From NCBI GenBank assembly GCA_003024175.1, contig MDYQ01000078.1, positions 124,001 through 188,000 of the forward strand: a stretch of DNA of 64,000 nucleotides, read 5' to 3'. The DNA is from Planoprotostelium fungivorum (taxonomy: Eukaryota; Evosea; Variosea; Cavosteliida; Cavosteliaceae). Positions within the stretch are counted from its first letter, which is position 1, and each line of letters starts with the position of its first letter. Made by a program: the position numbers and the translations under genes. Under the pieces are notes generated by a model that saw only the letters and a program-made list of their open reading frames with translations, made no database searches and was not told where the DNA came from. Positions 11,731 to 49,841 of this stretch are shown here, piece after piece.

Positions 11731-14700
11731 TTAAAAAGCGCTGGTGCTCTCGTAGAGGGGATTTTTGACGTCCGGGTTCTCGGTGTAGAGAGGGTTATCC
11801 ACCACACCGGCGTCCGCAAAGTCCAGCATGCTGCCAAATACCTCCGTAGGTGGTTTCCTGATGAGTCTGGCCACGGCAGCGACGGCAGCACCTGCCACGG
11901 CGGCACCGGCGGCAGATCCAACGCCGATGGTCCAAGTCAGACTTCTAGAAGATGAGGCGGGGACCGTCTCCGTCTGAACGGTGACGTTGCACGTGGCATT
12001 TGCGGTGAGAGAGGAGACGTTTCTGAGATCGACATCTGCTCCATCACCGAGATCATCGACGAGCCAAGACACTTGGAAGGTTCCAGATTTGGCGGGAACC
12101 AACTCGAGCGTGGAGAAGATTGACCTGAGGCCTTCCTGAGTCGACTGGCAGCGAACGGACGCGTTGTAGAAGGTGCAGGGGGATACTTTCATCTTGTTCA
12201 AGGCGGGAAGCCTGAGAGTGCCGGCTGTTTCGTCTGATAGAGTGACTGTGACGTTGAATTTGATACCGCTGGCGTCGGGGTCTCCGAGGGTGAGGGGAGG
12301 TAGGGGGAGCGTGGCGTTCAGCGTGGTGGTCAACGACTCGTTGACCGATACGTACGGGGCCTCGTTGATGTTACGTACTCGAATCTGGAAGGGTAACAAG
12401 TTGGATGGGGCGGCGTAGTCGTCACGCAGAACAAAAGAAGGTGCGGCGTACAACTGTTTCTCGTCAGGATACTGAATTTCGACGAGTTTTCTCACCAGGC
12501 GAGAGGTGTTGGCCACGGGTACGAAGAGCAAATTCCACACGGCAGCAGTCGAGTTGACGTAACTGGGAGAAATCACCGAGTTTTCCGTTCCCAAGAGGGT
12601 GCCCCTCTGACATTCTTCCGTTGTTCCGTTGTCGCAAGTGTAGAGTGATCCCATCTGTACGTACTTGGTGATACTGGCGGTCAACGAGGTCAACGGTGAA
12701 TCCGTGTCCGTTCCCACGAGCGTAATGACCGCCTCCGTGTTCTTCCACAGAGTGATAAATGTGGCGGGAGAAATCAAGGCGGGGGCGGCGTTGACGTGGA
12801 TGACGTCAACTGTGACGACATAGACGGAGGTGAGGTTCTGCTCGTCCGAAATTTCGATGGAAAATCGGGTGAAATTGACTCCGTAGCCGGTGGAGGGTGG
12901 GGTGTATCGCAGTACGTTCGTGTTGCCGGATAATAAAACGGGGACCGTTGTAGATGGACCGAAATACTGCAAGGTCGCCCCCGTTTCGGAATTGAGGAGG
13001 GAGACGTTACCGTTGGTGGGTGCATCTACAAGCTTGTAGATCAATCTGGATGCGGGGGTGATATCATCCAGACCGTTGAGGGTGAGTGTGACGGGGGAGC
13101 CCTCGTACGTAACCAGGTGGGTGGGGAACAGTCCCGTGGGAGGCGTAGATTGTAGGGTGAGACGTACGTACACGGTGGACGGTCCATCAGTTGTCCTTCC
13201 AAAGATATCGGTGGCGGTCAAGTTGAACTCCTCGGCGAATCCCGACGTAAGTCCGGAGGGTCCGACGTAATAGAGAGGGGTGAACTCGTCGTAGAAAGTG
13301 GCTCCCGATGTGAGACAATTGGACAATTGAGAATCCAAGCAGATCCTCCCCTGAGTGGGGCTGTTGAGCTGCACGGTGAGCGTACCCGGTCGATTACTGT
13401 GGTCCGTAACGTTTGCGTAAAATCGGATTACATTCTTTACGTCTCCAGACAGTGTTGTGGGTCCTGCCGTGGGAGCCGCTCCGGGGTTGGCGACGTAGAT
13501 ATTCGCCGCGTACGTCGGAGAATCTTGCTTTCCGTTCGAAAAGTGGAACGAGAAGGAAGTCAGAGGTGAACCGCTCGTGGCCAGAGGTGAAGCGTAAGTC
13601 AGGTACTTGTTCCACTGATCTTGGGATAAGGCGAGAGAATTCCTCTTTGTCAACAGGATCGGCAGGCCCGTGGGGCTCATTAGATCTCCCCACTGTGGTA
13701 ACGAGTCTATGTAGAGGGTGAGGGGTAGGCCTTGTGGATCGTTCGCGCTGAATTTGTCGACAGAAAGGCTGTCGCCGGCGTTCAAGAAGAGGTCGAAACC
13801 TTGTCCGGCGGGAGGCAGGATGACAGCGGTGACGTTGATCTGAGCGGTCAGGAGGGCGGAGACTGTACCGGTGGGGTCGACAAGTCTGTACTTGAAAATG
13901 TCGACACCGTTGAAGGTCTGGGGGGGCACGTACGAGAAGGAGAAGGTGGTGGTGGGTGGGTTGACCGAGTTGTCGACGTTGTTTAGAGAATAGACCAATC
14001 GGCTGCCGGAGGTGAGGGAGGTACCGTCCGGGGTGGAGAGGGTGCCATGGCTCGTTGTAGTGGACAGGATCAAGGTCAATTTACCTCCCTGAGTTCCATC
14101 CTTGTCTGTTGCCGTGACGGAGAAATTGAGGGCAATTCCTCCGGTGGCGGACAGAACGACTCCCTGGTCGAATCTGGGTGTCACGGTGTAAGGCGGCCTG
14201 GATGGTGCGGCAGTTACCGTGACCGTTACGTTGGATGACGTGGCGTTCGATGCGTCGAGAGCTTGCAGGGTGAAGCTTCCCAGGGGGCCCACGATGTAGT
14301 CGTCAAAGGACAGAGTGAGATCCGTGCTGCTGCGGGAAGACAGTCCCGAGGCCACATCGTAGAAGCCGTAAGTCAAAATTCCGGCGGAAACCACGTTGAG
14401 GTCGGTGGAGGTTCTTCCCAGGAAAAATCCGGTTACGTTCTTCGTGGGAACGGAGAAGAGTCTCAAAGTCTCAGAGTCTCCGTTATCTGAATCGAAAATG
14501 TTGGCCGTGATGGAGCAGCTACCGCCGATGGGGCAGACGACCGAGCTGACGCTAGAGAGGCTGGGTGGATGGTTGACCGCGTTGACCAGTACGTTCACGG
14601 TACGTACGGCGGAGTTGGAGCCGTGAGGGTCGGTGACGTAAACGGAGAAAGAGTCCGAGCCGGTGTACGCACCCGCGGGTACGTACGTTACGTTCCAATT

Positions 14701-17700
14701 GGAAGAATCAACCCCGTTGAAATTTCCGGGAGTGTTCGCCGAATAAGGCAGCGTCGATCCGGCCGTGAACGTTACACCTCCCACGTACAACGTACCGTAC
14801 GTCGGAGAATTGCTGAGGGTCAAGTTGAGGTTCTGTCCCTCTCCACTGTCTTCGTCCGTTGCCGTGACGACGATTGCGATACCGATGGAAGACTCTTGGT
14901 AGGTAACGAATGACGTGGTAGAGTCCGAGGGGTAGACGATGGCGGGAGGGTGATTGATTGGGGGTGGGGGTGGAGTGGATGTGGTGGCTGGGGTGGTCGT
15001 CGATGATGTGGATGCATCAGAGGTGGATGATGTGGATGCATCAGTGGTCGATGATGTGGATGCATCAGTGGTGGATGATGTAGATGCATCAGAGGTGGAT
15101 GATGTAGATGCATCAGTGGTCGACGATGTGGTAGCTGCATCAGAGGTGGAGGATGTAGATGCATCCGATGTGGTGGATGATGTGGATGCATCAGTGGTCG
15201 ATGATGATGTGGATGCATCAGAGGTGGATGATGTGGTAGCTGCATCAGAGGAGGAGGATGTGGATGCATCAGTGGTCGACGATGTGGTAGCTGCATCAGA
15301 GGTGGATGATGTGGATGCATCAGTGGTCGATGATGTGGTAGCTGCATCGGATGTGGAGGATGTCTCAGAAGAGGATGTCTCAGTTGATGAGGTGGATGAT
15401 GTCTCTGTGGATGAGGTGCTGGTCACATCCGTGGACGATGTGCTGCTGGTGGGATCCACAGTGGAAGATGTCGTCAATGCATCCGATGTAGAGGACGATG
15501 TGGTTGATGATGAGGTCGATGCATCCGATGTGGTGGACGATGTCGTCGACGATGATGTGGTGGACGATGTGCTGGATGATGTGGTGGACGATGTGCTGGA
15601 TGAGCTGGACGATGTGCTGGATGATGTGGTGGACGATGTGCTGGATGATGTGGTGGACGATGTGGTAGGTGGGGCAGGTACAATGGATGCCTTGACGTTG
15701 ATGTTGATCGTCTGAGAGGCTTGACCTCCGTACGCATCGGAGATACGCAGGGACAATTTACCCGCGAAGGGGTTCGTCAGGTAGCTGATGTTGAGGGACA
15801 AGCTGTAACTGGCCTTGATGGGTCCTGCGTCGACGATTTTGGCGGGAACAGAGGGTACCACGGCCGAGGCGAAGAGTACAGTCGAGTTGACGAGTTGTAG
15901 ATCGTCGATGAATACGCTGACGTTGTCGTTGATGTCTGGGTCTTGTACCGAGAAGGGGAGGGCACACAGGCTGTCGGCAGAGCATTGTAGATTGACGGGT
16001 GCCGTCAGGGTGGGAGGTGTATCGACGAAGGGCACGATCAATTGGACCTGTCCGGTTGTAGATCCAGATAATACGTCGGTGAAAGTGTAGGACAGGGTGA
16101 AGTTTCCGACTGTACTCGATCGGCTGTACGTGAAGGTGTAGCGAGAAGTCAAGTCCACGGGGGAATTGAGAGAAGTTGGCACGGTGTAGACCGAGTTGGG
16201 TGGTAAGACCGTACCATCCGAGGTAGTGAGCGTACCGTACGCCGGAGTCACGATGCTCAGCGACAACTTCTTTCCTTGCGTTCCGTCCACATCAGAGGCC
16301 ACCAGCGTGAAAGTCGTTGACCCGTTGACCGTTGTCGACGCCAAGTTATTCGTCGACAATGTGGGGTTGTTGTTGGGGGATACAGATACGTACACAGTGA
16401 CCGGATCGGATGCCATGTTGTAACTGTCGACGGCTGACAGCTGGACGGTTCCGATGCTTCCCTGGGCCGTGTCGTCCGTGCTGAGAGTTACGTAACCAGA
16501 CGTACCGGGCTGCACGGTGGGGGTCAGTGTGGCAGCTCCGTTGGTGGTCACGCTCGTATTCGCTCCTCCGTTGAGGCTGTAAGTGGCGGTGGCGTAGCTC
16601 AGGCCGGTCGTCAAGGTAACAGTCTCGGTGTCTGGGCTGTCGACGTCGACAACGGTGAAGGGTATGGTGCATTTACCACCGATGGGACAGGTGACGTCAG
16701 AGGGGGCGTTGAGTGTGGGGGCGTGGGGTGCAAACTGTACGGCCACTGTGACGTAGGCGAGGGCCGATTGCGACCTCGCGTTCTGAACGTAGTAGGAGAA
16801 GCTCGTGTTTCCCACGAAATTTCCGGTGTAGAAGAGTACGGTACGGTCGTAGGCCACGTAGTAAGGTGAGATGTCGTACGAGTTGGGATCGGTCAACCTG
16901 CCGTTGCCAGGCAACGAATTGATCAGCACGGAGGGGTAGTTCGATGTCTTGGGCACGTTGGTTGCGTAATTCGAAAAGTCGATGACATTCGGTTGGCTTC
17001 CTTGCTGTACGACCAGGGTAATGTTGGACGCCTGGGGTGGATAATAGACGGGGGCCACGACGAATGTCACGTTGTAGACGGTGGAGTAGGCACAGCCGTC
17101 GTAGAGAACGAAGGACAGGGTGGCGTTTCCGTTAAAGTACTGATTTCCCAGGAACGAGTAGGAGAAGNGGCACGTTGGTTGCGTAATTCGAAAAGTCGAT
17201 GACATTCGGTTGGCTTCCTTGCTGTACGACCAAGGTGATGTTGGAGGCCTGGGGTGGATAATAGACGGGGGCCACGACAAATGTCACGTTGTAGACGGTG
17301 GAGTAGGCACAGCCGTCGTAGAGAACGAAGGACAGGGTGGCGTTTCCGTTAAAGTACTGATTTCCCAGGAACGAGTAGGAGAAGGTGGTGTAGAAGGTAT
17401 CGAGGCTGGCCCTCGTGTTGTTATCTACAACGGTCACGTTTCCTTGAGAGGGTAACGTCACGAACTTGAGCTGGAAGAGAATGAGTCTCGTCGTAGATCC
17501 ACAATAAAATAGAATAAATGTCACCTTGAATTGATTTCCATCGGAGTCGCTGCCGGTCAACTTGAAGGGGAAGGGTGAGTCTTGCGTTGGAAAGAAGACA
17601 GTGTTCTTGCTCTGAGGGGGATGGTTCATGTCTACAACGATGGACTGTGTTCCCCAGCCCCAAACGCTGCAAGTGATAGAGGGCACCTGCAGGCCCAGAG

Positions 17701-20331
17701 TGAGCGCGGCTTGAACGCTCGCGGAGTTTCCAAGGGAGAGGTTGAGATTCAATCCCGCGGAGATGCCGAGGAGGGGTGTGTTCAAAAGCGAGGATGTACT
17801 GTTGAGAGCCGTCGTACCACCTGTCGCACGTCATCACGGAGATTCCGCGGTGATTCCTCACTGTAACACTTGACTCGGAGGAGGGTAAAGAGGTTGGGCA
17901 GGTTGACGATGACTGAAGTACTCCAACCAACAGACAAGAGTCCACCTCCCAAATTGATCACCACACCCAGGCCGGTAGTGTCCACGATGTTCTGGTAGTA
18001 TGGAGCCAGGGCGGGAGTGCATACGTACATTACGTTCGCTCCCAGGGGAATGAGGGAGCTGTAGTAGGGGGTGGGGTCGTCGCTGGGACGGTTCCTGGGA
18101 ATGACCACGATGAGCTTGTACGTGTTTTTACGCCAGCCGATGGAGCTGGAGCCGCACTGGGCCAGGTTCGAAAAGAGCGGGAAACTTCCGGAGGTGCTAT
18201 AATTAGACTGTAGAAGGCCCAGGGAAGCGGTCAGGTCGAGACCGACCGAGGTGAGTGGTCCGTAGCTGCGGAAGCTGCGAACGCGTGAGTACGTACGTCT
18301 ACAACGAGACATCACCTGTTCAGAGAGGCTATGGCCATTCGACTGCCAGGGTAGACACCCACGAGTGACGTCAGCAGAAGGGGTGCAGATAGAACCAGAT
18401 CCGCCAGATCTTGAATGGGGTTCGAACCGGAGTTATCGAATGCCAATAATAGATCCACGGCGGGTAATACGGGTAAATTGACTTTGAGACCCAGTCCCAA
18501 ATTCTTTCCCGCCAGAGAAGCGTTGGCTCCCACGAATAGATTCGTCAAGATTGGGTTGATGAAGGAAGTGGGCGACAGGGTCACACTCTCTACGTAAGAG
18601 CTGTTGATGTAGGAGCTGCTGCAGTACCCGTTGGGTATGTCACAATTGACTCCCGTCCATCCTTTCTCACAGGTGCAGGATCCGTCTCCGTACTTTCCAT
18701 CGTTGCACTTACCGTGAACGCAAGTGCAATTCGCACATTTGTTACCGTAATAGCCGGGACGGCAGCCCGAGCAGCGAGAGGCGGGGTCGAAACCGATGCT
18801 GAGGGAGATACAAGTGCAGCAGAGGAGAGGATTAAAGAGGATGGGGCAGACGATGCCTTGGACGAGAGAGCCGGAGCCGCAGTCTGTGGGAGTGATCTCG
18901 AGGGTGATGCAGAATTGGCGGGTTGTAGTCGGAGGAGAAGTGGCGGGTTGTAGAGCGCCGATGCAGATGGAGTTGGTGCCGGCGAGGGGCGTGGGCCAGT
19001 TGAAGGTGACCGACTACAACGCGTCAGTTGCGATTCAAACGAATTAAAATCTCGTCCACCTGAGGGTTCTTGCAGTTGAGCGTGGGACACTTGACCGGGC
19101 TCGTTGTAGACAGACTGGCCCCGCTGGGAAGTGAAGATGCGAAGATCTGCACGGCGTTGCCCATCACCGTATCGTCCGCCACAATGGTGAACGTGAGGGG
19201 GCTAGATGTGTTTCCCAACAGCTTCAGAGGAGAAGTCAAGAGGGACAAGAGGTTCGTCCCGGCCGATAAGATGACTGGGTTCGAGAAGCCACAAGTGCCG
19301 GAGCCCCCGCAGCACTGCGAGTTGGCCGTGCAGCTCGCTCCGTTGTTATTGAAGAGGAGGCTGGTGCAGATGCAGGCACCGACGGGAGTAGAAACGTTGA
19401 CGAGATAGTCCACAGAGACGGAGCTGAAGCTGTCGTAGAGGATGTGCTGCAGCTGATAGACGCCGGGTGAGGTCAACTTGGAGGCATCGAATGTGACCGA
19501 GCCGCCGGGCGTGATGGTGTATAAGTTGCAGAGGCTGCCTGCATTACCGGCACCGACGGTCTCGGCTAAAGTGGATGGACGGAAGAACGCGGGGGTCGAG
19601 TTTGTGAATGGGATCTGGAAGGTGGCCGTTTGACCGATCTGGACCTGCTGGATGGGAATGGAGGTCGATGTGGGTGAGTTGATGAGGAGAGAGGCGGATG
19701 TGCCTGGAGGGTAGACGACTGCCTGAATGGAGGTGAGATGCAGGAGATATGGAGAATGCAGATGGGCTCACCTGACATTGGATGTTCCAGAAGGCGTTCG
19801 CGTTGTTCGTTAAGAAGTTGGGACGGCTGCCGCGATAGTGGGTGATGGTGTATGTGAGCGGGCGGTCTGCAATGGGAAATTGATCTGATGGAAAATGAGT
19901 CGTCTTCTTCAACGAGATGGTCGATGTGAGACGGAGGGGCAGATACTCACGTGACGTTGTGAATGATACGGTGATATAATCTAAAGCTATGTTGACACCG
20001 GTTACAACGCCGGCAGACAAGTCGTCCGAATCAGTGTATGTACCGTTGGTGTATAGAAGGGAATAAGAGGGGCTGCCGTCCAACAGGTTGATGTTGACGG
20101 AGGACCCCACAACGATGGAGTCTGGGAGGTTGAAGAAGCTCCTCTTGAAGGCGAATTGAGTCGTCACGACGATAACGTGAGGGTTGCTGTCTGATTCTCT
20201 CGCCCAGGAGATGGTAGCATAGCGAGCGGGGTTCGCTAACGTGCATCAGCTTCCACGTTCGCCTTCATTCGCTCACCTTCTACAGCTAAGAGTACAAGGG
20301 ATAAGAATAGTACAACAGAGATGAGCTGCAT
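11731..20331 (-). CDS. Giant Sib-like (similar to integrin beta) adhesion receptor
   Basis: This is a predicted type I surface protein of about 2,700 residues. It starts at the ATG at 20331 with signal peptide MQLISVVLFLSLVLLAVE. The order from the N-terminus is: extracellular Ig/cadherin-like region; Cys-rich EGF-like module (KCNDGKYGDGSCTCEKGW, about 18650-18780); an integrin-beta-like A domain with the MIDAS-type DNSGS motif (VDLLLAFDNSGSNPIQ, about 18405-18455); many repeats of roughly 100 residues with cadherin-like DxDG and TATDEDSG motifs; a Ser/Thr mucin stalk (14970-15680); further repeats; a glycine/alanine membrane helix (GVGSAAGAAVAGAAVAAVA); and a tail with two NPLY motifs (VVDNPLYTENPD, VKNPLYESTSAF). 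NPxY tails bind talin in integrin beta and in Dictyostelium Sib proteins. The gene probably mediates substrate or prey adhesion. An unresolved base at 17168 sits between two near-identical 216-bp copies, a likely assembly artefact. Confidence 0.85.
14970..15680 (-). repeat. Mucin-like Ser/Thr-rich coding repeat in the adhesin
   Basis: Repeats of short words such as SSTTDASTSS, SDAATTSS and TTSSSTSS fill about 235 codons. This is typical of an O-glycosylated extended stalk between folded modules. The opposite strand shows a long open frame rich in VDDVDASE words, which is a by-product of the repeat. Confidence 0.9.
16952..17384. repeat. 216-bp near-identical direct duplication around a single N
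   Basis: Copy 1 is 16952-17167 and copy 2 is 17169-17384, separated by the only ambiguous base in the window (17168). I count about four mismatches, roughly 98% identity. The duplication repeats the coding block NVTFVVAPVYYPPQASNITL inside the adhesin gene and breaks its frame at the N. Most likely two contig ends or two alleles were joined without being merged. Confidence 0.85.
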
Positions 20332-24000: not shown

Positions 24001-26835
24001 TTCAACGATCAACAGAAGAGCATTCAAGGGGGAATAGAAGTCAATCTCGTCTACCACAGGCTACCTCTCGCCGTCGGAAAATGCCCCACACCTAAGGTGG
24101 GATGACTCGTTGTAGATCGAATTGTAAGGTGTGAAATTTCGTCAGGATTTCGAGCGCCTGATCGAGGCGTTGGTGCCATTGGACGTCAATGATGACGTAC
24201 TCTTCTCCTGTCAGATGGGTGAAATCTCGTGGAGAATTCGTGGGTCAGAATTGACGTGTTATGACAGGTAGAGCGAGGAGCACCGTCGGTACCACCATCC
24301 ACAGTCTCATCAATTTGTGGAAAAATGGCGGGAAAAATTTCCCCATACCTCCCGGGGGAATCAAGCGTAGGAAGTGTGAGCCACACTTGCATCCGATATT
24401 TTAATCTGATTTATTTATGATCTGACAGACGAGTACGGAAGCATTCTCCACATCATCCGTGTCATTCCAGAAGGACAGAAGAGGAGAACCGAGGTGATCG
24501 ATCTGCAACGTTGTAGATGGATCGAAATTCATTTTCATCAGGTGGATGCAGTCATCGACGCTTGTGGTGAGACGTACAATCTCCGCGGAAAAATCGATGA
24601 AATGAGGGAGAAATACGAACGCAGTCGCACGCCCGAGGAGGTACCATCTACAACGATGTAGATGGATTGCTGAATCTTCTGACAGGTCACTTACTTTAGA
24701 AAAGTTCTACTTCATTTTGTCTCACGTTACGTTTATATCATCATCATCAACTCTTACCTGTCTCAGCAGGTGATCGAATTTTCTTCCAAATTTCTACCGA
24801 ATTTCTATTTGTCTCGTATGGTCGCAACGATCTGACTCGTGATATCATAGGTCGAATGCCTACGTAAAGGGGAACTTTCTGTGAAATTTCATCAGTGGAT
24901 GGAAGAGAGAACCGAGATCGAACTTTTCATGGAAGAATTTCACAGCGACGCAGAGAAATCGTGAGTTTCCCGCCTTATCTTCACGTTCGAAATTCAAATT
25001 CCGCAGCATCCGCATTCTCAAGGACGTGGATGCGTTCGATCCTAGCGTGCACATAGTCACGGACAATTGGGCCACTCCGTCCAAAGAGTTTGTGTCCAAG
25101 GTGAGATCATCACGTCAGTCATCACATGCATCACATGCATCACATGCATCACATCATCGTATGTGATGACGATCACGATGAGTGACACACACAGGTGGTA
25201 TCCTCCAGGAGAGGAGATGTATTAGACCCCAGCACCATCATGAAGTCAGATCACTTCCCCGGATGTCAGAAGATGAGCATCTTACCTCACCTGCCCGGTG
25301 CACCCAATTTCAGGTGATGACGTCATCACACGTCATCATCCTGATTTGATTGTAGATCCGTCCCAGGCATGAACGTGTACGGCGTTGCCATACCAACCTA
25401 CCAGGGCATGAAGAACGTACTGGACCATCTGAACCCCGGAGGTGAGCATTCTACCCGTCTCAATTCGTCGAGAATAAAATCACGAAAAATCATTTTATTC
25501 ATCTCCTTCCAGCGGGTGGAAACATGAAGAAGGCCGTGTGGATCAGCTTAAGAGAAGAACCAGTCATCTACATCAACGACAGACCCTTCGTTCTCAGAAC
25601 CTTAGACAACCTCTTCGCCAACTTAGAGTGAGTTAGATTACGTGCGATGACGTCACGTGACGTGGCAAAGGTACACGGGCATCAACACGAAGGGAGTAGA
25701 AGAGATGGAGAGTCGATTGAAGGAAGACGTAATCCGAGACGCGAAGAAATATGGCGGGAGGTTTTTGATTCACGATGAAGGCACCGATGGGACCACCATC
25801 GCCACTTTCGAGCAGGTGGGACAGAAACGTCGCGTTGTAGATGGATGGTGACGAGAGAACAGTTGACTTCGGTGTTGACACCCAGGGAAGTGTACGGAGA
25901 GTTGCAGAAGCATGGATACCACGTGGATTATCACAGAGTCGCCGTGACAGACGAACAAGCCCCGGAAGAGAAGGTGACACGTCATCATCTGATCTCCACA
26001 TCACATCATCCGGCAACATCATCTCATCGATCACGTCGCATCATCATCATCATGCTGAAGACAAGACAGGACTTTGACGACATCGTCAAGAGAGTCCACG
26101 ATGGAATAGGGGGAGACAAAGACACTCACATCATCCTCAACTGTCAGATGGGACGAGGTAGAACCACCACCGGGTGCGTGACACGTCGCTCATCTACAAT
26201 CGTCCTGATTCATTTTCTTCAGCATGGTCATCGCAACGCTGCTCATGTCAAGAGAAGAGAACATCCAAGTGGAAGAGAAGGAAGGCACGTCTTACGCGGG
26301 GTACGAGGGAGGAGAGTACAAGATCATCCTTCGACTCATTCGAGTCTTACCCAAGGGCAACGAGAGGAAGGTGAGACATCGACACGAACGATGATGTCCA
26401 AGGAAGATGATGATGATGATGATGATGACAGAACCTCATGGATCGTTGCATCGATAAGAACGCTCAATTTCAAAATTTGAGATCGGATATTCTGCAGTGG
26501 AAGACGAAATCGGAAGATGAGAAATCGTCCGAGAACGGTGATCACTCGTTTTTTCACAACTTCACGAGAGAGACACGTCTGACCGGAACACAGCGAGGAG
26601 ATCAGCTCTCACGCGTGGCATCGGATATCTAAAGAGGTGAAGATGTCATGATGATGATGCGGCGTGTGATGATGTGAGCTGACCTTCTCTGAGGTATTTC
26701 TACTTGATCGCATTCAGTGCTTTCGTCATGGAGGGGAGAGAGGCTGGATTAGAGTCCAAAGATAGACTCTTCACTCAATGGATGAGTCAGCACCAAGAGC
26801 TGTACAGCTTACTAGACAGCATCGACCTCATGTGA
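21071..26835 (+). CDS. Paladin-like protein with three phosphatase-type CX5R modules
   Basis: The ATG at 21071 opens MTTIKRQGSLVGSG. The paladin signature blocks repeat: RRGDVLGKGTILKLDQY, then SGAPNFRSV, VYGVGQPTEFGIGTIL and WINMREEPILYINKRPFVLR; later WMNLREEPVVYVDNKPYVLR; and finally RRGDVLDPSTIMKSDHFPGC, LPGAPNFR, VYGVAIPTYQGM and WISLREEPVIYINDRPFVLR. Three phosphatase loops are visible: FNCQMGLGRSSCG (about 22337), SCQMGRARSTVG (about 24205, split by an intron) and LNCQMGRGRTTTG (about 26135). Each keeps the Cys and Arg of CX5R. Paladins are cytosolic phosphatase-like proteins; animal PALD1 has been linked to receptor-kinase and phosphoinositide signalling. The gene has more than 20 introns, and these are the densest source of the TCTACAAC and TGACGTCA words. 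The end YSLLDSIDLM stops at 26835. Confidence 0.9.
23794..23815. repeat. 22-bp palindrome copy, one mismatch, in a paladin intron
   Basis: CCATCTACAACTTTGTAGATGG is the type palindrome with its centre changed from CGTT to TTTG-like spacing, split here as CCATCTACAAC and TTTGTAGATGG. It lies in an intron after the exon ending KLYVHDE. Confidence 0.85.
24644..24665. repeat. 22-bp palindrome copy in a paladin intron
   Basis: It reads CCATCTACAACG followed by ATGTAGATGG, one base from the perfect palindrome. It directly follows the donor region GAGGTA of the exon ending RSRTPEE. Confidence 0.85.
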
Positions 26836-36062: not shown

Positions 36063-36240
36063 CAAGATTCTATTCTTTACTATTCTATGCATTCAATTAG
36101 AGACGATCACTCCTATGCGAAGGATGCAGGTTCGGACATGTACTGAGCGATTCGAGAAGAAAGTCCATAAACATCCGCTTCGTCACAAGCAAATGAAGCG
36201 ATATGTCCATCATATAGAGAGAAAGAAAGAGAAGCAAGTT

Positions 36241-39200
36241 TTATTCTTCTTCCTCTTCTTCCATTTCCCCTGCCTGGGCCGTCTCTAGATGCCTCACCGT
36301 CCACCCCGGAAAGTTCTTCGAATAGTGAGCCTCCTGCAGGGCCGCCACCTCCTCCGGGCTGGCATCTACCCCATTCAGTCCATCTACAACGAGATATCCC
36401 ATCTAAAAATAGCTCCCTACCTCCGGGCAGTTGTAGATCGCGGTCCGACCCAAATATGACGAGAGACCCCTCCCTCCTCAGATACTTCTCGGAAACTTCC
36501 ACCAAGTCCTCCTTATCCGTCTCGAATATTTGGTCCCTCCTCTTCTGCCTCATGTCTAACGTCATGTTGTGCAGCCATTCAGACAGACCCTTCTGTGAGG
36601 GAGGTGTGGGCCTGTCTAAACTTCCAAACAGGCTCAACTTCATCTCCTTTACGAGGGACTCGCTGCACTTTTCGCTGGAGGCAAAGTCGGCAACCTTGTC
36701 GAATGTGTCGAGTGTTCTCTTTGTGTTGGGGTCACGGTAAGAGTAGAAGGACCACACTCCTGTGCCGCTGTTGGCGCCAGAGCCGTATGCACCTCCCTTC
36801 TCCCTGATTTCCGCGTGGAGCGGATTCTGCGACAGCGTTGTAGACAGCAACTGGAATCATAAATCTTCCCGCCAATTTTAACAATTTGAACTCACGGCCA
36901 ATTTGACATAATCGGGGGAGCTCCATTCTACCGTAGGAATCGATTTCGTCACGTAATTCACAGAGCCAGGAACGAGGAAGAAGGTCTTCTCCGCTTGAAA
37001 CGTCTCCGTGGGGTCCTGATCTCACGTTCAATTCGAATCGGAAGAGGTTAGACTCACGCCGATGTTGCTGTTGTCCGTTCTCTTCTTCGGCAGAGTATCG
37101 ATGAGAGAGAGGAGGGATCTGAATCAAATGAATTCCATTGGATTTTTAGAATAGAATTAATTATTGAAATTCATTTGCTTACCTCTTCACGGCAGGGAAA
37201 GATTTTTCTTCTCCGGTGACCAAGATCTTTTGGATCGGACGATTCAATAATATCTTACCGATCCTCTGTTCTATCTTTAGAACGTCTCGTTGTAGTGCCA
37301 CTCACCTCCAGCTTCTCGACTAATCCTTGTACGTCGTCTTCCTGGGCTAAATTCTGCAAGAAAGAAACCTGTCGAACGTCAATCTACAAATCTCCTTCTT
37401 GGTTCGTTGTAGATCGTTTCACCTGAGTGAAACCTCCGAATATCTCCGATAATCTGGCAGATCTGTGTACAGATGCAGATCCGTAGGTCCTTCCAAAGAC
37501 ATGTCCATCACCCACGAGTGCCTCCTGCATCTCCGTCGCTCTCTGTCTCCAAGTCAATCTTCCGTATTCTTCCGAAATTTCCGTGACATTTCACCTGGTT
37601 GAGTAAGGTGGTGAGGAGTTGCGTTTCGTTCAAGCGTGGGCCCGTCAGCAGCTCTTTCAGTAGATCAAACATTTTTTCAATGTTCCTCTCCAGGCAGGAA
37701 GAAGTGAAGAGGAGATGTCCCGTACACTTTTTCAGGTTGTCATGGTCCATTTCGTGACTGGAAGGGGTCGGCAGGTTGTAGATGGATGGACTCACTTGAT
37801 GCTGACGCTGATACCACCGGTGTACAGTTCGGATTGCGAGGAGAATTCGCGGAAATTCATTCCCTTCGTTCCCAGTTGGGTCATGATCTACGACGCGTCA
37901 GGATCCATTTGAACGGGAATAATATGGCGGGAAACCTCATACGTACCGACACGAACATGGGTAGGTAGGGTAATAACTCAGTGTCCAAGTTGGGAATTGA
38001 GATGAGAGATCGATAGAAGACCAGTCCATTCGTCGGTTGATTGTTCCAAAAGATTCCATTCTCTACCCTCTCCTCCATTTCCTTCCCGAGTCAGTTCCCG
38101 CCAAAATGTCGACGTCGACACCTTCTGCAGCTCGTAATCCTTGATGAGTGTCCTCGGAACATCCTGGTCCACGTGCAGAGTGGGGAGGCAGCTGACCTGT
38201 CGTCGCATCAGATTGAAACGGATGACGTAAACTGACGTCATCATTCTTCTTTGATTCTTGGTGCTCTCTCAAGGTCTTGTACTGTTGGATGATTTCCTTC
38301 TTCTCTGACTCGCTCAGTTTCTTCTGAATTTCGTCCAATTTCTTCCTCTCTCGGTCGGCCTTCTGAGCTGCGTGTGTGGGATCTACAACGCGAGATGAGA
38401 AATATTGAAAATTGATTTCGAACACAGAGAAGGCGACACGATGGATCATCGATGATGTGATCGTGATCGATGATGTGATCGATGATGTACGATATGTCAA
38501 TATTGATGAAGTCAAGAGTGATCATCACCTGGGTTCATGATGATGGTGAGTTTGTGTGGATTGTTGATAAGATACTTTTCAATCAAACTCTCAAAGTAAG
38601 GCCCCTCTGCCAATTTCTTCCTCAGATCGGAGATGTACTGAAATTTCTCTCAGTTCTCCGTCACATCTCTCGACTCACCTTGTCGACACGCAAGAAGTCG
38701 ACAACGTCACTATCGTGCACCCAAGCAGAAGAGATACCATTCAATATAGACATTCCGTACTTCGTCGTCACCTGGTCGCCGTCAGTATCGTCGCGAGATT
38801 TCCACGAAATCTCTCACATTCTTCTGGGAAAGTTCGATCTGGTGGATGACGGACTCGATTCTCTTCTTGTCTAGACCTTCGTCTACAACGCGCCTGAGTG
38901 TATCATCTATGATCTGCCTGACGCGTTCCACGTCCCCTTCCTCAATGTCCTGCAAGCCGATACCGAAGGAGGCTTCCCTGTGAAATTTCAACGAAATTTC
39001 ATTTCGTACGTATGTTACGTACTTGCCGTAGGGGCTGTAGCCTGTTCCCGGGCAGTAGTCAGAGCCGATGTTGGGCTCGATGAGAGATTTGAAGAAGGGA
39101 GAATTTGGACCGTCTGTCAACAGAGTGGATAGAATGTGAAGGGAGTTGACTTCCATGGCATCCTGTTAGGGTGAGAAAATGGCGGGAAGATTTTGGCGGG

Positions 39201-41032: not shown

Positions 41033-41602
41033 TCACCTCGCTCTTCGATTCTGGAACCAGATCTGAATGTGTCGTTGGCACGTGTGAAACCTTCTGGCGA
41101 TCTGCTCTCTCTCCTCTAGAGTGGGATACGGCGTACGCAGGTACAGATTGGACAGCTCCTCCTTCTGTCTTGCGGAGAAAGACTTTCGTGGGGTCTTCTT
41201 GACTTCTGCAAAGAGTCAGAGATGCTATCGTCCTCTATATCCACCTTTTCGGCTGTTTAGGGTTGTGGGGTGGTGATCGTAGAAGAAGATCCGAGCGATG
41301 GACACTTCCTTGGTGCATGACCACTCGACGGGGTTGATCAGTGATGAGATATCCATCGGTTGTGTGTGAAGTAGGATTGGACTGAATGAATCGCTCCACG
41401 TTCATCCTATTTCGACATTTCAAATCGTGACGCCATCTGATCCTGTCAGAGGTCGCCCAGACGACCTACCACGACCTCTCAGCGACCGCAGTTTACCTCT
41501 AAATTTGTCATAGTCCACATTTTGGAGGATTCTACTTAGCACCGCTTGACATCGCGTTTTGATAGAGAGCCCCGAAAATGTCAAGGATCGAAATGGTTCC
41601 AT
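41033..41602 (-). CDS. Homeodomain protein
   Basis: The C-terminal exon encodes KKTPRKSFSARQKEELSNLY, LRTPYPTLEEREQIARRFHT and CQRHIQIWFQNRRAR. This is a typical-length homeodomain with the helix-3 core IWFQNRRAR (Trp, Phe, Asn and Arg conserved). There is no three-residue TALE insertion. Exon 1 starts at the ATG at 41602 (MEPFRSLTFSGLSIKTRCQA); a middle exon follows (NVERFIQSNPTSHTTDGYLI, VHRSDLLLRSPPHNPKQP). Introns are about 54 nt and 40 nt. The frame stops at 41033 directly after NRRAR, or splices into a further short exon (a GTGAAG donor overlaps the stop), so the end is uncertain. The predicted protein is a small nuclear DNA-binding transcription factor; targets are unknown. Confidence 0.83.
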
Positions 41603-41960: not shown

Positions 41961-44900
41961 TCACTTCCTCCTCTTGCTCTCGATATTATAGACGAGAGAG
42001 GTGAAGGTGTGGCAATCATCCAGCCATGTCAAGATCATCTCAAAGTTGGGTCTCTCTTCGGGTGGAGTTCGGATGCACTCTTTGAAGATGTCTTGCATCT
42101 CGTCGCTCATCTCGGGAGGAGGTCGAAGGCGGAGGGGCTCGTATTCATCTCCGACACGTGTTGCAGTCTCTATCGGGCTGTATTCCGGGTATGGATCCTG
42201 CCTGCGAGGTGTCGGTGATGATGGAAGACGTGTTGGGTCAGATGATGATGTTCGAGATGAGATCACCTGGCGAAAATCTCCCACAGAGTGACACCAAAGG
42301 CCCAAACTACAACGAGTCAGGTACATTTGGCGGCTTGTAGATGGATCTCACCGTCCGATTTCTCGGAATAAACGGAGCTTCTGAGGCATTCTGGGGCCAT
42401 GTGCTTGAGAGGGCCGACGAGGCTGGTAGTTCTGAACATCGTGAGACATCCACTCTCTTCTCGACGTACTCACTGTGCTTCTCCACCTCCAAAGTGCATC
42501 CTAGAGAGACCGAAATCTGTTCGTCACTTGAGCCTGATTTCGTAATCGATAAAGGCAGAAGATCACACCCGATACTTTTGGATTCAAACTCTTATCTAAT
42601 AAGATATTTCTAGCCGCCAGGTCTCTGTTTGTGTTCATTTTATGGATTCAGAGAAAAACGATTCGATGATCACCTGTGTATGACTCCCTCCGTGTGCTGT
42701 AGAAATGTCAGTCGAAAGATCCCTCATCTACAACTCACCAGGTGAAACATTCCGGCGGCGACACCTCTGATCACGTGACTGACCGTGTTGGGAGATATTA
42801 TCTCATTCGAATGCAACACTCTGTACAGAGATCCACCATCACACAATTGCGTCACGATGAACAGCGTACTGTCCGTCTCCGAAATGCAGACACCCAGATA
42901 CTGTTCATCCGTCGACAATCGAAATTCTCCCCACGTTCTCACCTGTACAACGTTGACGTGTGGCCTTAAGGTTTTCATGATGTCCACTTCTCTCATGCAC
43001 TCTTCGGTACGATTCTCATCGTCCGCGTAGAAACTCTTCACGGCCACGTCAGACGACCTCCACCTACCTCGGTACACCACACCAGACGCCCCTGATGACG
43101 TCATCATTCGTCATCAGCGTGTCGAATCACCTGCACCGAGCTGTTCTCCGATGTAGAGGTCTCTCACATCGATCTGGTGGTTCGCTTTGTACTTGGCCAA
43201 AAAATTGACGGGGGCGGGCCTCGATAGCGCGGCGTCGTAGCGGAAGTCCGTGCTGTAAGGTGCCTTGAATCCTAGAGAATGGCCTGATTCCTGGGAAGAG
43301 CCCGAGGATTTCGAGTATTGAGTGGAGGAGCCGCTGCCGTCTGAGACGAGCCTGACGTTCATACTCTCTCCCTCTCTGTGAAATTTAGATCTCGTTCATT
43401 ATTTTCCATTTCGATGATTCACGTATTGATGCTATTATATCTTTCTCTTCCACTGTTCTATCTTGATGATGAAATGAATAGAAATAATATAACGAACAAA
43501 TAGATAAAGTATAGAATAAAACGAAACGAAATCGTAAAACGTCTCACCCTTCCGCATCTCGATTGCGAATGTACAAGATGACAAAGATGATTCCGACAAT
43601 GACTAAAACTCCCACCAGACTCCCCACAGTGGCACCAACGATGACAGGCACTCTACTCTTTGGTGCACTGATTCCACCACCACCGGAAGATGTGACGTTA
43701 CCACTGTAAGATGGTCGGTGAAAACTCGACGAGAATTCGATCACGTGTTGTTGTTGTTCAAGAACGACCAATAGAAAGAAGTGAGGGTGTTGGACTGGCC
43801 CACCGGCCTGAAAGCTGCGCCTGCGAGTTGTAGTTTGCGAATCAGATAGGCTTTATCCGAAATGGTCTGACGATTCTCGTAGCCGATCCATTGTACACCT
43901 GATTTTATTTCATTTTATTCTTTTGTGAATTTCTCTCGATGGACTCACCTGAATACATGTAATACATCTTCATCGTCTCGTTGTAGACGGACGTGAAATT
44001 GGAGGATTGTTGTGCGCGATCGATCTGTGGCGGTTAGAATGATTTCAAAATTCAAATGCGTCACTTCGGCGGCAAGCCAACAACCGATACCAAAGGTGAG
44101 GCAGCCCCGACTTCCCACTGTAGCCGGCGAGCCCGGCATATTCGCATTCGCATCTCTAAGAACGTAATTGATTCCGTAATTTCCGATACTGTACAGTAGC
44201 TGTCTCTCGTCATTCATTCAGATAAGTAAAAACGATCACGACTACTCTTCTCGTGAAGACGAATGTATCGAATCGAATCGGATGATGTGGTTCTCACTTT
44301 AGAGGATGGCACCTCGTTGAGGTAATATTTCAACGTCTGCATCGTATAATCGATGGGAGACAAAGACATGGCACCATAGGCCTGCACCGTCGCATTGTTG
44401 AATAATTCCGTGTTGTCTAAAATCAAATAATCCACTTGTGAAATCAGTATCTCGTGTGAGTGTGATACGATATACCTTGAGGGTACATGTTGGAATAACT
44501 GACGTTCGAATAGATGGAACGGTCTGCAGAGACAGAGAGGGTGAGCATAATCTTCTTTCCGGTCGTGTTCGCATGATCGTCGATGGCTGATCGGATGGCG
44601 GATGTGAGGAGGAGACACGTGGGCTGTCGAAGATGAATAAAAAGTCCACAGATGATGGAGGATGGACTCACTGCATTGTCGGTGGTCCAGTGCCATCCAA
44701 TGTCTATTCCGTCGAAGTCGAAGTCGGCTGTGTATCGGATGATACCTCGCGCGAAATTGGGAATGATGGACGCATTCCGTTTCATTTCATCGGCCAGTGC
44801 TATGGCATCAGCATTCACGCCCATCGTGCTGATCTGATCGTGATATGTCATGCAGGAGTCTCACTAGATGTCCCACCAGAAATTTGAGATCTGGATTCTT

Positions 44901-45220
44901 CTTCTTGGAAAGCTGCTTCAATTGGACGTAAGTACCGGTGGGGCCAGTGGAAGATGATGATTGAGGTGAGAATGTACCAGAGGACACATTGTAATTGGCC
45001 ACAAGTACCGTGAGATGAGAGTATTGGGAGTAATCGATCTGGTCTCATTAGAAGAGATCGTGAAACGTGGACTGACCTTTGATGGATCCAAGTAGCAGGC
45101 ACCTCCGAGATATACATCCCAATCTTCAATATACCCAAAAACAGTGGGAGCTGAAGAAGTCGCATGTATCAAAGTGAGCACAAAGACAATCAGGTGAGGC
45201 CACAGCTGCCGTGATCCCAT
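41961..45220 (-). CDS. Receptor tyrosine kinase with a degenerate GH18 chitinase-like ectodomain
   Basis: The ATG at 45220 gives signal peptide MGSRQLWPHLIVFVLTLIHA. The ectodomain is GH18-like: PTVFGYIEDWDVYLGG, DYSQYSHLTVLVANYNV, then FARGIIRYTADFDFDGIDIG followed by WHW. Here the family DGxDxDxE motif is changed to DGIDIGWH, so the catalytic Glu is His and the adjacent Asp is Gly. Later GH18 blocks are KKIMLTLSVSADRS, AYGAMSLSPIDYTMQTL and VQWIGYENRQTISDKAYLIR. One helix follows (VPVIVGATVGSLVGVLVIVG), then a Ser-rich juxtamembrane segment. The kinase is complete: IGEQLGAGASGVVYRGRW, SDVAVKSF, FIVTQLCDGGSLYRVLH, VIHRDLAARNILLD, KVSDFGLSR, GPLKHMAPE and SDVWAFGVTLWEIFARQDPY. HRDLAARN marks a tyrosine-kinase type loop. 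It is probably a plasma-membrane receptor for chitin-type ligands. More than 15 introns are present, several with CGTTGTAG words. Confidence 0.85.
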
Positions 45221-45494: not shown

Positions 45495-48400
45495 TCATGA
45501 ACCAATCGCTTGGATTACATTTGAAGAGATGAGGGTGCTCGTGTCATCTGACGACAAGGCTGAACCTCCAGAGACAAACTGCGAATTACTAACGATGGCG
45601 CCTCCTCTGCTGAGCTGGAAGACGGGAAGAGACCCTGTCTGGGCGAAGTTTTCGTTGTAGACGATGGATGCGCCAGACACAATTTCGGTTGTTCCTTGTC
45701 CTCTCAGAAGGTGCTGGTTGCCCGATTGGATCAGACTGCCGGTAGATACGATGATGTTGACGTCGTACGAGTCGAATGCATTATTCGTCAGAATAAGAGA
45801 TCCAGCGTTGTAAAGAGTTCCTCCTTGTGTCGTGGCATTGTTGTTCGACTTGTGAGGGTGAGAAAGGAGTTCGAGGATGAGATGGATGAAACTCACAAAG
45901 GTAGATGAGAAGACTGTGGCGCTACTTCCATATAGAGAAAGAACGCCGCCAGTGCTCGCTAAGTTCCCTGAAGCGATCACGGAAGACATCCGGACTTGAC
46001 CGACTACATGACGTCAGTCGTGACATCGTACATCAGCATACGTACTTGAACTGTACAGGACACCACCGCTGCCTCCCGCCTGATTTCCCGCGTAGTAACC
46101 GCCGTTGATTGATGTCACATTTTTGCTCCATATAGCTCCTCCGTCGTTGATCGCAGAACAAGAAGTGAGGTTGGTCTGAGTCGAGAGGAGTGTACCGTAG
46201 ACGTAGAAGCATCCACCGTAAGTAGCCCTGGCCGCATTGATGACACATGAAGATAAGGTCAATATACCTTGATTCTCCAGATAGATGACACCTATCAGAG
46301 TCAGGTGTGCAGCTACACGGCGTAACTCTTACCTCCACTGTTAGAGGAACGATGATTCGTGAAGACGTCGGAGAAGTGAGAGAGAATTCCACCATCCGAA
46401 TAGATGGCACCGCCGTTACCCGAGGCAGAATTGTTATTATACAAGTTGTAAGAGCTGAACAGAGAGACTGATCTCCCTCGCAAGCTGATCACTCCGGACG
46501 TACCAGAGTTCGAATTGAAAGAAGAATTTTTGATATTCACAGCAGATGGTTGATTGTTGGTGATGTCTAATACCCCTGACGATGTGTCATGATACATACA
46601 ACACAATTCGAACCAGACGAATCAATGCACCTGCAGAAGATGTTGATGCGATATTACTGAAGGAGCAGCTGGTGATAGAGAGAGATCTCAATCCATTCAT
46701 GATATAGAAGAGACCTGGGTGAAGAATGAATTAGAATCCACATCTATCGCCCAATATCTCACCTGGTGTGCGGATCTGCGAGAAATTGGACGCAGAGAGA
46801 GAAATAGTGTTTACATTGTTTCCATACAAAACGGTAGAGTCACCGGTCACATTCGCGATGACCACCCCGATCATCTGACGACCTTCAACATCCAATTCGA
46901 TAAGCTTTCCTCTCACCGAAAACTGAGTGATATTGTACAAGCTGAACGACACGTTACCCTGAATCGTTGCAGAAGACCCCACGAGTGTGATGTTATTCTG
47001 ATATCCAGTGTAATTCACGTGAAACGAATCAAACTGCCCCGACAGATAGATCGTTACGTTACTGCAAGCTGCAGCGGCCACATTGAAATCTGTCGCATTC
47101 AGAGGATAACACAATCGACCTCTTCACCTTGTAAGATGTTGTTCGTGGGAGTGAATGACCAGATGCAGATGGCCGGGCATGGAGAAGCCATGGATGCCGA
47201 GACGTCAGATTGACACGGAGATGGTGGGAAACATCCCATGGGATTCCCACGCAAATCACACGTTCCCACGCTGCTCGGTACAGCGGTTGCGTTGTAGAAG
47301 CTGAGATTATTGTGGCTCAGGTCGATCGTTTGCAAGAGATTCCAAGCGGATAGAGAAGGTATGACCCCGTTGATATGATTGAATCTCAGTATCAGACTCG
47401 ACAGGTTGCTCCTCTGAGGTAGATACACGACACCCGACAGGTTGTTGTACGATAGATCTAAGACCGAGATCTGAGACGTGAAGAGGGTGGGAGAGAGTGA
47501 GCCGGATAGAATATTGTTCGAGGCCGTGAACACTTGTAATTGTGGCATACTGAAAGAAGGTAACGCTCCCGTGATGACGTTGTAATCCAAGCGAAGCGTT
47601 TGCACTGCGAATCCACTCAGATAATTTGGAATGGATGGGATGAGATTGCGTGAGAGATCCAAGTAAGTGAGTGAAGTGAGATTGGTGAAATCAGGTATGG
47701 ACGTCAGGGCGTTACTGTTGAGATAGATCGTCTGCAAAGAAGAATTCATGGTGTTGTTGACTGCCGCGATGATGTTGTTCTGAATGTCCAAGTAGGTGAG
47801 ATTCTGCGAGGTCAAGTAGGAGGGATGGATCGTCTGTAGTTTGTAATTCGAAGCCATCTCGGCTCGTTGTAGAGAGGGGAGCAGTGATATATCCGGCGCG
47901 CTGCCGATCAATCCACAAGCTGTCAGCAGCCTGTCAGTGGTCTATTCATAGATACCATCTACTCACCGTACATGGACAATACCGTCAAACGTGGTAGATT
48001 GAGCTGTACGGAATCCATCGTCCAATGGTTCAGGTTGCGACTCAGTCTCAGCTGCTGTAGGCTCGTCATCGTGTTGACGACGTTGGGAAACGCAAAGAAA
48101 TTGTTCGCGCTGACGTCCAGAATGGACAGGATCGGCATGGAGAAGGTAAACGAGGGAGTGGACTCGTTCAGTAGATTACCAGAGATGACCAGGCTCGTCA
48201 GGGCGGGAAAATTTCCCGCCAATAATGGGACTTGCCCGGTGATACCGTTTCCGTCTATGTTGACTCCCTGCAGACGATTTGACACCGCGCTCGTGTTGGG
48301 ATTGATGCTGACGGCGGAGAACCGACAAGCTGACATGAAGAGAAATTGGAGACTGGGGAGGAAGAAGAGCTGATAAGGAATGGTCCCGTTCAACAGATTG

Positions 48401-49841
48401 CTAATACGTGTGAGATGATGACAACACGATGTGATGTGACTCACGATCCGAGTTGAATGCTTTGAAGATTGATGAGATTAAATAGAGAGGGTAAATTTCC
48501 CGTCAGACGGTTCGAGCTGTGTCGTGTCACCACATCATCACCGCCATCGTGCATCATCAACTCACTCCAGATCTAAGAGGCTCAAGAGTGTCAACTGATT
48601 GAGTTCTGCAGGGATCGTTCCGTTGAGCTGACAACCTCTGCAGCCAAAGGACTACGACGATCAGCTGCATGTCTTCACATGTGATCTCACCGTCAGATTC
48701 ACTAATCTACCGATACCCATCAGATCCCCGGACAGAGCATTGCCAGTGAGTGTAACCTCCTGAAGAGATGTCTGTGTGGGGTTAGAAAGAGATGAGGGCA
48801 AGTTCAAATGAAATGAGTGAGAATCATGGGATGAAATGAATTCAGACGTCACGATCAGAAATAAGATGAGACGTACGAGGTTGCCGATCCATGTCATGAG
48901 AGTTCCACTGAGACCACAGCTCCTGCGGGGTACTCAGACGAGATGATGACGAGTCTTGAATGCGAAAACTCACCAGCACTGTAATCTCAGAAGGGAGGCA
49001 GGGAGTGTTGGAAGGTACGCTGTAAATGAATTGAAACTGAGTCTGTGAGCATCTCATCGGGTGATGCCCCGATCCATCTCACCCGAGCTCGAGAAATGTG
49101 AGGCTGGTCATCTGTCCGAAATCAGGCAGTTGACCGCTGAGCTGATTTGATACGGCGTGAAATTCTTGAAGGGTAGTCATCGATCCAATGGATGATGGGA
49201 TCTGTTTCAAACATGAGTTCTCTTCTAAAATGAACGGTGGGAGAGCCTCACAGTGCCAGTTAATTGTGCACGATTGAAATTGAGATATGTGAGAGACGTC
49301 AGATTATTGATGCAACCAGGGATGGAACTGGTGAAAGAATTTCTGTTTAGATTCAGTCTATGGAAGAGGTCGGCGAGCCCACGATGACAGATCCAGGTAG
49401 GTCATGTTTGTAAGATAACATAGAGTGGTTGGGATGGCTCCTCTGATTTTGAGGTTGCTTAGATAGATCTTACTCACTCGACCACCCAGTGATCCAATGG
49501 ATGGATCGATGATGCCACCCCCAATCAGGCTTGAGACAGCGATGAGATACAGCTCATATCCTCCAGGGCCACAAGTGAGGCCATTGAAATCTGAATTACA
49601 GGGCTACGGCATCGTGAGCACATTATGCAGGGCAACATCGATCTCACATCAGATCCTGTCCAATAATTTGGATTGCCTGAGGAGAAATGAGTCTGAATTG
49701 AAATCCACAGAAGGTGCCCTCACCTCCTAAACTGATCCACACCCTATTGAGTATGATTGCATCGTCTGAGGGTGATGTAATGGCTACAGGAATGAAGAAG
49801 ATGACTAAGACAGCGAGGTAATACAGGCGCTCCCCCACCAT
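45495..49841 (-). CDS. Secreted protein with leucine-rich repeats and a beta-helix (pectin-lyase-like) domain
   Basis: The ATG at 49841 gives signal peptide MVGERLYYLAVLVIFFIPVA. A plant-type LRR cap follows (PNYWTGSDFNGLTCGPGG), then many LxxLxLxxNxL(S/T)GxIP repeats: LTYLDIQNNIIAAV, LTYLDLSRNLIPSIP, ISVLDLSYNNLSGVVYLP and LQTIDLSHNNLSF. From about 47110 downward the sequence becomes right-handed beta-helix-like (NNITLVGSSATIQGNVSFSL, NSGTSGVISLRGRSVSLF, NNNSASGNGGAIYSDGG, INGGYYAGNQAGGSGG). The frame ends LISSNVIQAIGS at 45495 with no membrane helix or kinase. It reads the same way as the GH18 receptor kinase and ends 275 bp before that start codon. LRR plus beta-helix ectodomains normally sit on receptors, so this may be a secreted co-receptor or a receptor that lost its kinase. 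Exon joins at 48400-49500 are approximate. Confidence 0.75.

Follow-up and report, generated by a model that had tools for sequence, protein, structure and literature searches.

A predicted receptor kinase with a degenerate GH18 (chitinase-like) ectodomain and a probably tyrosine-specific kinase domain in a microbial eukaryote

The gene described here lies on the minus strand of the 64,000-nt window (the whole stretch of DNA that was analysed), with its ATG at position 45220 and its stop codon ending at 41961, exactly the span that an earlier sequence-only reading of this DNA had assigned to one leftward gene. Spliced by hand, the model has 18 exons and 2307 coding nt that form one continuous frame of 768 residues (Table 1). 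The introns were placed by eye, and splice statistics computed afterwards as a check showed that all 17 are GT-AG introns of 31–172 nt, intron 2 being very short (31 nt) and intron 9 the longest (172 nt); nine of them begin with GTGAG and four with GTGAT, 15 end in CAG and two in TAG, and GC content is 0.505 in the exons versus 0.408 in the introns. An alternative placement of intron 6 at 44090–44025 was rejected, as it broke the frame. An AATAAA was found by reading within some 30 nt past the stop codon.

Table 1. Features of the receptor kinase gene, in positions of the window
Feature	Coordinates	Strand	Content and basis
Whole gene	41961..45220	-	18-exon model of a 768-aa receptor kinase; gene model and Pfam
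Exon 1	45077..45220	-	Predicted signal peptide, roughly residues 1-23, then the first part of GH18 (FGYIEDW); alignment to chitotriosidase
GH18 ectodomain, exons 1-8	43745..45142	-	PF00704; match to residues 27-349, ending about 43810
Exon 3, degenerate active-site motif DGIDIGWH (residues 147-154)	44672..44833	-	Model, alignment and raw ORF 44444-44860
Intron 8 (41 nt), between ectodomain and membrane exon	43704..43744	-	Stop right after the GH18 domain if retained
Exon 9	43548..43703	-	Gly/Ser linker, one predicted membrane-spanning helix at roughly residues 390-414, then basic YIRNR; model and hydropathy
Exon 10	43131..43375	-	Juxtamembrane segment with Tyr 443, 463, 469 and 485, and kinase start; model
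Kinase domain (Pfam residues 498-747) plus brief C-terminal tail, from the last part of exon 10 through exon 18	41961..43152	-	PF07714 and PDB matches
Exons 13 and 14, catalytic loop HRDLAARN (residues 615-622)	42569..42696	-	Loop split by intron 42673-42625

Downstream of the receptor gene is a homeodomain ORF (41033–41215, minus strand; PF00046, 1.5e-16). The next gene upstream, also on the minus strand (45498–48477), encodes leucine-rich repeats in ORFs 47102–47941 (LRR_8, 2.3e-19) and 47962–48477; its later ORFs (46731–47123 and 45498–46013) had no Pfam match and look repeat-like by eye, and near 45498, where the gene seems to end, we recognised by eye neither a helix nor a kinase at its 3' end. 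Elsewhere in the window are part of a PreP-type presequence protease (36116–36856, minus strand; PreP_C, 1.7e-19), an ORF with a match to PTPlike_phytase (25779–26477, plus strand; 1.8e-16) and a minus-strand ORF of 1850 residues (11734–17830) with a Cadherin_3-like match (1.3e-09), which lies in a high-GC, G-skewed region at 12–20 kb. The translation of this long ORF has an X near its start, and the residues that follow the X recur at the end of ORF 17135–17830, which may mean that sequence was duplicated at a gap in the assembly; opposite it, on the plus strand, runs an Asp/Val-rich low-complexity open frame of 253 residues (14954–15712). A tblastn search of the 64,000-nt window identified no second copy of the receptor, the only other match being one of 28 residues to the kinase (E-value 0.74, 13516–13433). 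With the ectodomain as query, tblastn at 1e-5 gave no match in plasmids or phages, and a scan of viral contigs gave nine pattern matches with none confirmed; as all of these collections are poor for eukaryotes, the lack of matches says little.

A Pfam search with the spliced protein matched residues 27–349 to Glyco_hydro_18 (PF00704; 4.1e-24, 86.2 bits against a cut-off of 29.6, positions 2–311 of the 317 in the profile) and residues 498–747 to PK_Tyr_Ser-Thr (PF07714; 2e-65, positions 3–256 of 258). Since splicing by hand might favour the wanted answer, nine unspliced stop-to-stop ORFs were scanned as a control: one of them (44444–44860) matched GH18 at 7.2e-07, its 29.6 bits being just equal to the curated cut-off, two matched PK_Tyr_Ser-Thr (1.1e-13 and 1.2e-05), one had only sub-cut-off matches to unrelated families and the remaining five had no match. 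Searched against the PDB, the whole ectodomain matched 102 distinct sequences at an E-value of 1 or less; among the best 60 of these the top matches were to YKL-39 (9.9e-14) and acidic mammalian chitinase (3.9e-13), followed by chitotriosidase (2.3e-12) and the plant chain At4g19810 (4.2e-12). When its halves were searched separately (E-values of 0.01 or less), the C-terminal half matched 55 sequences and the N-terminal half 35, and judged by name the matches of both halves were chitinases or chitinase-like proteins, MGP-40, BP40 and SPP-40 being taken by us as alternative names of CHI3L1. An NCBIfam search of the ectodomain gave no match. The signal peptide and the membrane helix were called from a hydropathy scan of the gene model, in which two hydrophobic segments rose above the cut-off, residues 10–28 (the predicted signal peptide) and 396–414 (the predicted helix, with basic residues after it); nine of the ten N-glycosylation sequons are N-terminal to the helix. 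The protein thus has the layout of a receptor kinase (predicted signal peptide, one helix and a C-terminal kinase) and, more specifically, that of CHRK1 (GH18 ectodomain, helix and kinase), and the combination of signal peptide, GH18 domain, one helix and kinase put forward in the sequence-only reading was recovered in full in one continuous model. We regard this predicted GH18–helix–kinase architecture as well supported, and it is an uncommon one.

The GH18 domain carries DGIDIGWH where active members of the family have DxxDxDxE. In the alignment to chitotriosidase, Asp138 is replaced by Gly152 and the proton donor Glu140 by His154, so that the earlier claim of a lost catalytic Glu and a lost neighbouring Asp holds, and the protein has the GH18 domain without catalytic Glu that characterises chi-lectins. 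At the same two positions YKL-39 has Ser and Ile (DGLDVSWI) in the PDB alignment, and a search of the receptor protein with the GH18 active-site pattern gave no match. The motif lies within exon 3 and is therefore independent of splice choice. A sequencing error in the motif was rejected, as by their codons Gly and His together are four bases away from the catalytic residues. By analogy, the loss of catalysis thus appears well supported.

On the cytoplasmic side, VAVK (520), HRDLAARN (615), DFG (635) and APE (661) are present together with Lys523, Asp617, Asn622, Asp635 and Glu663, which bears out the complete set of kinase motifs (VAVK, HRDLAARN, DFG and MAPE) described earlier; HRDLAARN and DFG are each assembled across an intron (42673–42625 and 42568–42517, respectively). 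That the protein is a receptor kinase thus seems well supported. As to the kind of kinase, VIHRDLAARNILL at 613 fits PS00109 (tyrosine kinase) and there was no match anywhere to PS00108 (Ser/Thr), the two active-site patterns of PROSITE. HRDLAARN is without the Lys typical of Ser/Thr catalytic loops, and in the P+1 loop (GPLKHMAPE) Pro656 and Lys658 align with the PIKW that EGFR and the Src/Abl ancestor share, whereas CTR1 has GTPEW there. However, measured against the tyrosine-kinase form P-[IV]-[KR]-W-x-[AS]-P-E, this loop keeps the Pro and the Lys but has Leu for Ile/Val and His for Trp, and Tyr is missing from the activation loop, which does contain Thr and Ser. In a PDB search with the whole kinase domain the best single-domain match was to CTR1 (152 bits), a Ser/Thr kinase of the TKL group, slightly ahead of the Src/Abl ancestor (144 bits), an EGFR chain ranking first only by virtue of two kinase copies at 94 bits each. 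These three points (the P+1 Trp replaced by His, the activation loop without Tyr and CTR1 slightly ahead) make the tyrosine-kinase claim weaker than the sequence-only reading had it, although its tyrosine-type catalytic loop stands, and we consider tyrosine specificity likely. The same three points would fit a protein of the same architecture whose kinase belongs instead to the TKL type, with Ser/Thr or dual specificity and a catalytic loop resembling that of tyrosine kinases, in other words a CHRK1-style receptor-like kinase. The survey of Physarum in the portion of PMC4758236 drawn on here, in which 29 proteins bear tyrosine-kinase identifiers and only four have the full consensus, also speaks for such an enzyme. 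The catalytic loop and the PIKW-like Pro and Lys speak against it, and we rate it as possible but clearly the lesser prospect.

The chitin-stacking Trp positions of chitotriosidase, which we take to be Trp31, Trp99, Trp218 and a Trp on strand 8, are retained only in part. Trp31 and Tyr27 are both kept in the alignment (as Trp34 and Tyr30), and in the MAFFT alignment Trp99 is replaced by Ser108 and Trp218 falls in a gap; Trp is absent between residues 34 and 153 and again between 155 and 290 of the model, so these two losses are independent of alignment details. The strand-8 Trp is uncertain: four of the five printed HMMER alignments (acidic mammalian chitinase, chitinase-like protein 4 twice, and YKL-39) place Arg350 there, the fifth (class V chitinase) places Phe349, and MAFFT introduces a gap and aligns Trp363 with it. 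On strand 3 the ectodomain also lacks the SxGG motif. Replacing a Trp near the C-terminus with Ala abolished activity in class V chitinases of legumes (PMC4967823), the Trp concerned probably being that of strand 8, and a lectin from plants that is a relative of class V chitinases is described in PMC6272470 as binding high-mannose N-glycans. Given the partial loss of chitin-stacking Trp residues, carbohydrate binding by the receptor is putative. The more specific suggestion of the sequence-only reading, that the ectodomain serves as a receptor for chitin from fungi or insects, has on its side the GH18 homology, the replacement of catalytic residues as in YKL-39, the retained Trp34 and Tyr30, and the report that both tobacco mosaic virus and a fungal pathogen induce CHRK1 (PMC10573068). 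Against it are Ser108 in place of Trp99, the lack of any Trp near the position of Trp218, the missing SxGG and the Arg350 or Phe349 of the HMMER alignments, for which MAFFT offers Trp363; we find a chitin receptor rather unlikely.

The link between the GH18 domain and the kinase depends on introns 8 and 9. The intron 8 that we chose begins with GTGAT, as do three other introns of the gene, and ends in CAG. We listed 19 GT-AG joins from exon 8 to the helix exon that keep the helix in frame, but as the list was filtered for in-frame joins it shows only the number of alternatives, so that the link does not depend on any single splice choice, and is no independent proof of the fusion. No Met precedes the helix within its ORF (43852–43544), so that a separate kinase gene with the helix would be without an evident start; GH18 and kinase as separate genes were rejected on this basis. 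If intron 8 were kept, the reading frame would run ...NNNNT and then stop, directly past the GH18 domain, giving a secreted GH18 protein as the main or an additional product. This we think improbable, as retention of 10 of the 16 other introns also gives an in-frame stop, which makes that of intron 8 ordinary for this gene, and as exon 9 and the kinase exons have open frames, a helix and intact kinase motifs. That the gene is a decaying pseudogene, as the lost catalytic and ligand-site residues of its GH18 domain might suggest, is very improbable in view of the 2307 nt open in the model, the intact catalytic residues of the kinase, the strong domain scores and the GC contrast between exons and introns.

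From the layout of the modelled gene, the degenerate active site and the intact kinase motifs, all of which are read directly from the sequence, our favoured interpretation, which we hold to be fairly probable, is a single-pass surface receptor kinase with a glycan-binding dead GH18 domain outside and a kinase, most likely tyrosine-specific, inside; the receptor role would follow from this anatomy. With the proton donor and the supporting Asp lost, the GH18 domain should bind rather than cleave, and its ligand would most likely be a glycan, from prey, from a neighbour or from the cell's own wall. Binding or clustering of the ectodomain at the presumed cell surface would bring the cytoplasmic kinases together in a putative dimer, where they would phosphorylate one another and their substrates, most likely on tyrosine, and the juxtamembrane Tyr residues would be candidate docking sites for SH2 proteins as possible downstream readers. 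We speculate further, and only tentatively, that in a microbial eukaryote a true tyrosine kinase may have been joined, independently, to a dead GH18 domain resembling that of chi-lectins, the product serving as a pattern-recognition receptor for fungal or other wall glycans during feeding. If true, the use of a decatalysed chitinase domain as the sensor of a membrane kinase would have arisen with a kinase of a different type from the plant one, and probably outside plants; it would also provide a testable example, from a microbial eukaryote, of a receptor tyrosine kinase that senses glycans, bearing on the roles of such receptors before animals.

Several known systems share parts of this design. 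The chitinase-related agglutinin of PDB 4uri, which we take to be from Robinia, is a relative of class V chitinases used as a lectin, and the ectodomain matched it at 9.1e-08 (among the best 60 of 102 matches); to our knowledge it is not joined to a kinase, and its catalytic machinery is reportedly conserved, going by the title of one study. The GH18 domain is common to the receptor and to the animal proteins YKL-39, YKL-40, YM1 and chitinase-like protein 4, of which YKL-39, the best PDB match among those 60, also departs from the active motif at both of the positions changed in the receptor. However, YKL-39 has Tyr at the position of Trp99 where the receptor has Ser, the loop after strand 6 of chitotriosidase is missing in the ectodomain, and the animal chitinase-like proteins are secreted and are not known to have a helix or a kinase. 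On the kinase side, receptor-type tyrosine kinases of Acanthamoeba and Physarum likewise combine a predicted helix with a tyrosine kinase in non-animal cells: helices are predicted in seven of 22 protein tyrosine kinases in Acanthamoeba (PMC4053784) and in three of four in Physarum (PMC4758236), both as given in the portions of these papers cited here. The same portions describe no GH18 ectodomain for these kinases, and no word beginning with "chitin" occurs in the main text of the Acanthamoeba paper (PMC4053784).

The closest parallel in layout is tobacco CHRK1, proposed as such in the sequence-only reading and borne out by two reviews, in the parts we cite: CHRK1 joins a GH18 ectodomain lacking the catalytic Glu and chitinase activity to a cytoplasmic kinase (PMC10573068), and 91 plant sequences have a predicted extracellular GH18 domain and an intracellular kinase (PMC5485988). 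The second review, in that same part, predicts these plant ectodomains to be enzymatic and excludes the proteins from the lectin receptor kinases (PMC5485988), so that a lectin is not the agreed reading even in plants. One soybean homologue of chitinase-related agglutinin carries a helix and a kinase, according to the available text of PMC6272470. We found no GH18 receptor tyrosine kinase in the open-licence literature, an absence that is weak evidence. The receptor-like kinases known from plants have a kinase domain of the Ser/Thr type. The receptor described here therefore shares with CHRK1 and the plant GH18 receptor-like kinases the joining of a GH18 ectodomain to a kinase, and with CHRK1 the missing catalytic Glu, but differs from the Ser/Thr kinases of the CHRK1 type in its tyrosine-type active-site pattern and in having no match to PS00108. 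Judged from the kinase type, an invention independent of that in plants is plausible; GH18 receptor-like kinases are an established kind of plant protein, from which the present one would differ in kinase type and probably in lineage.
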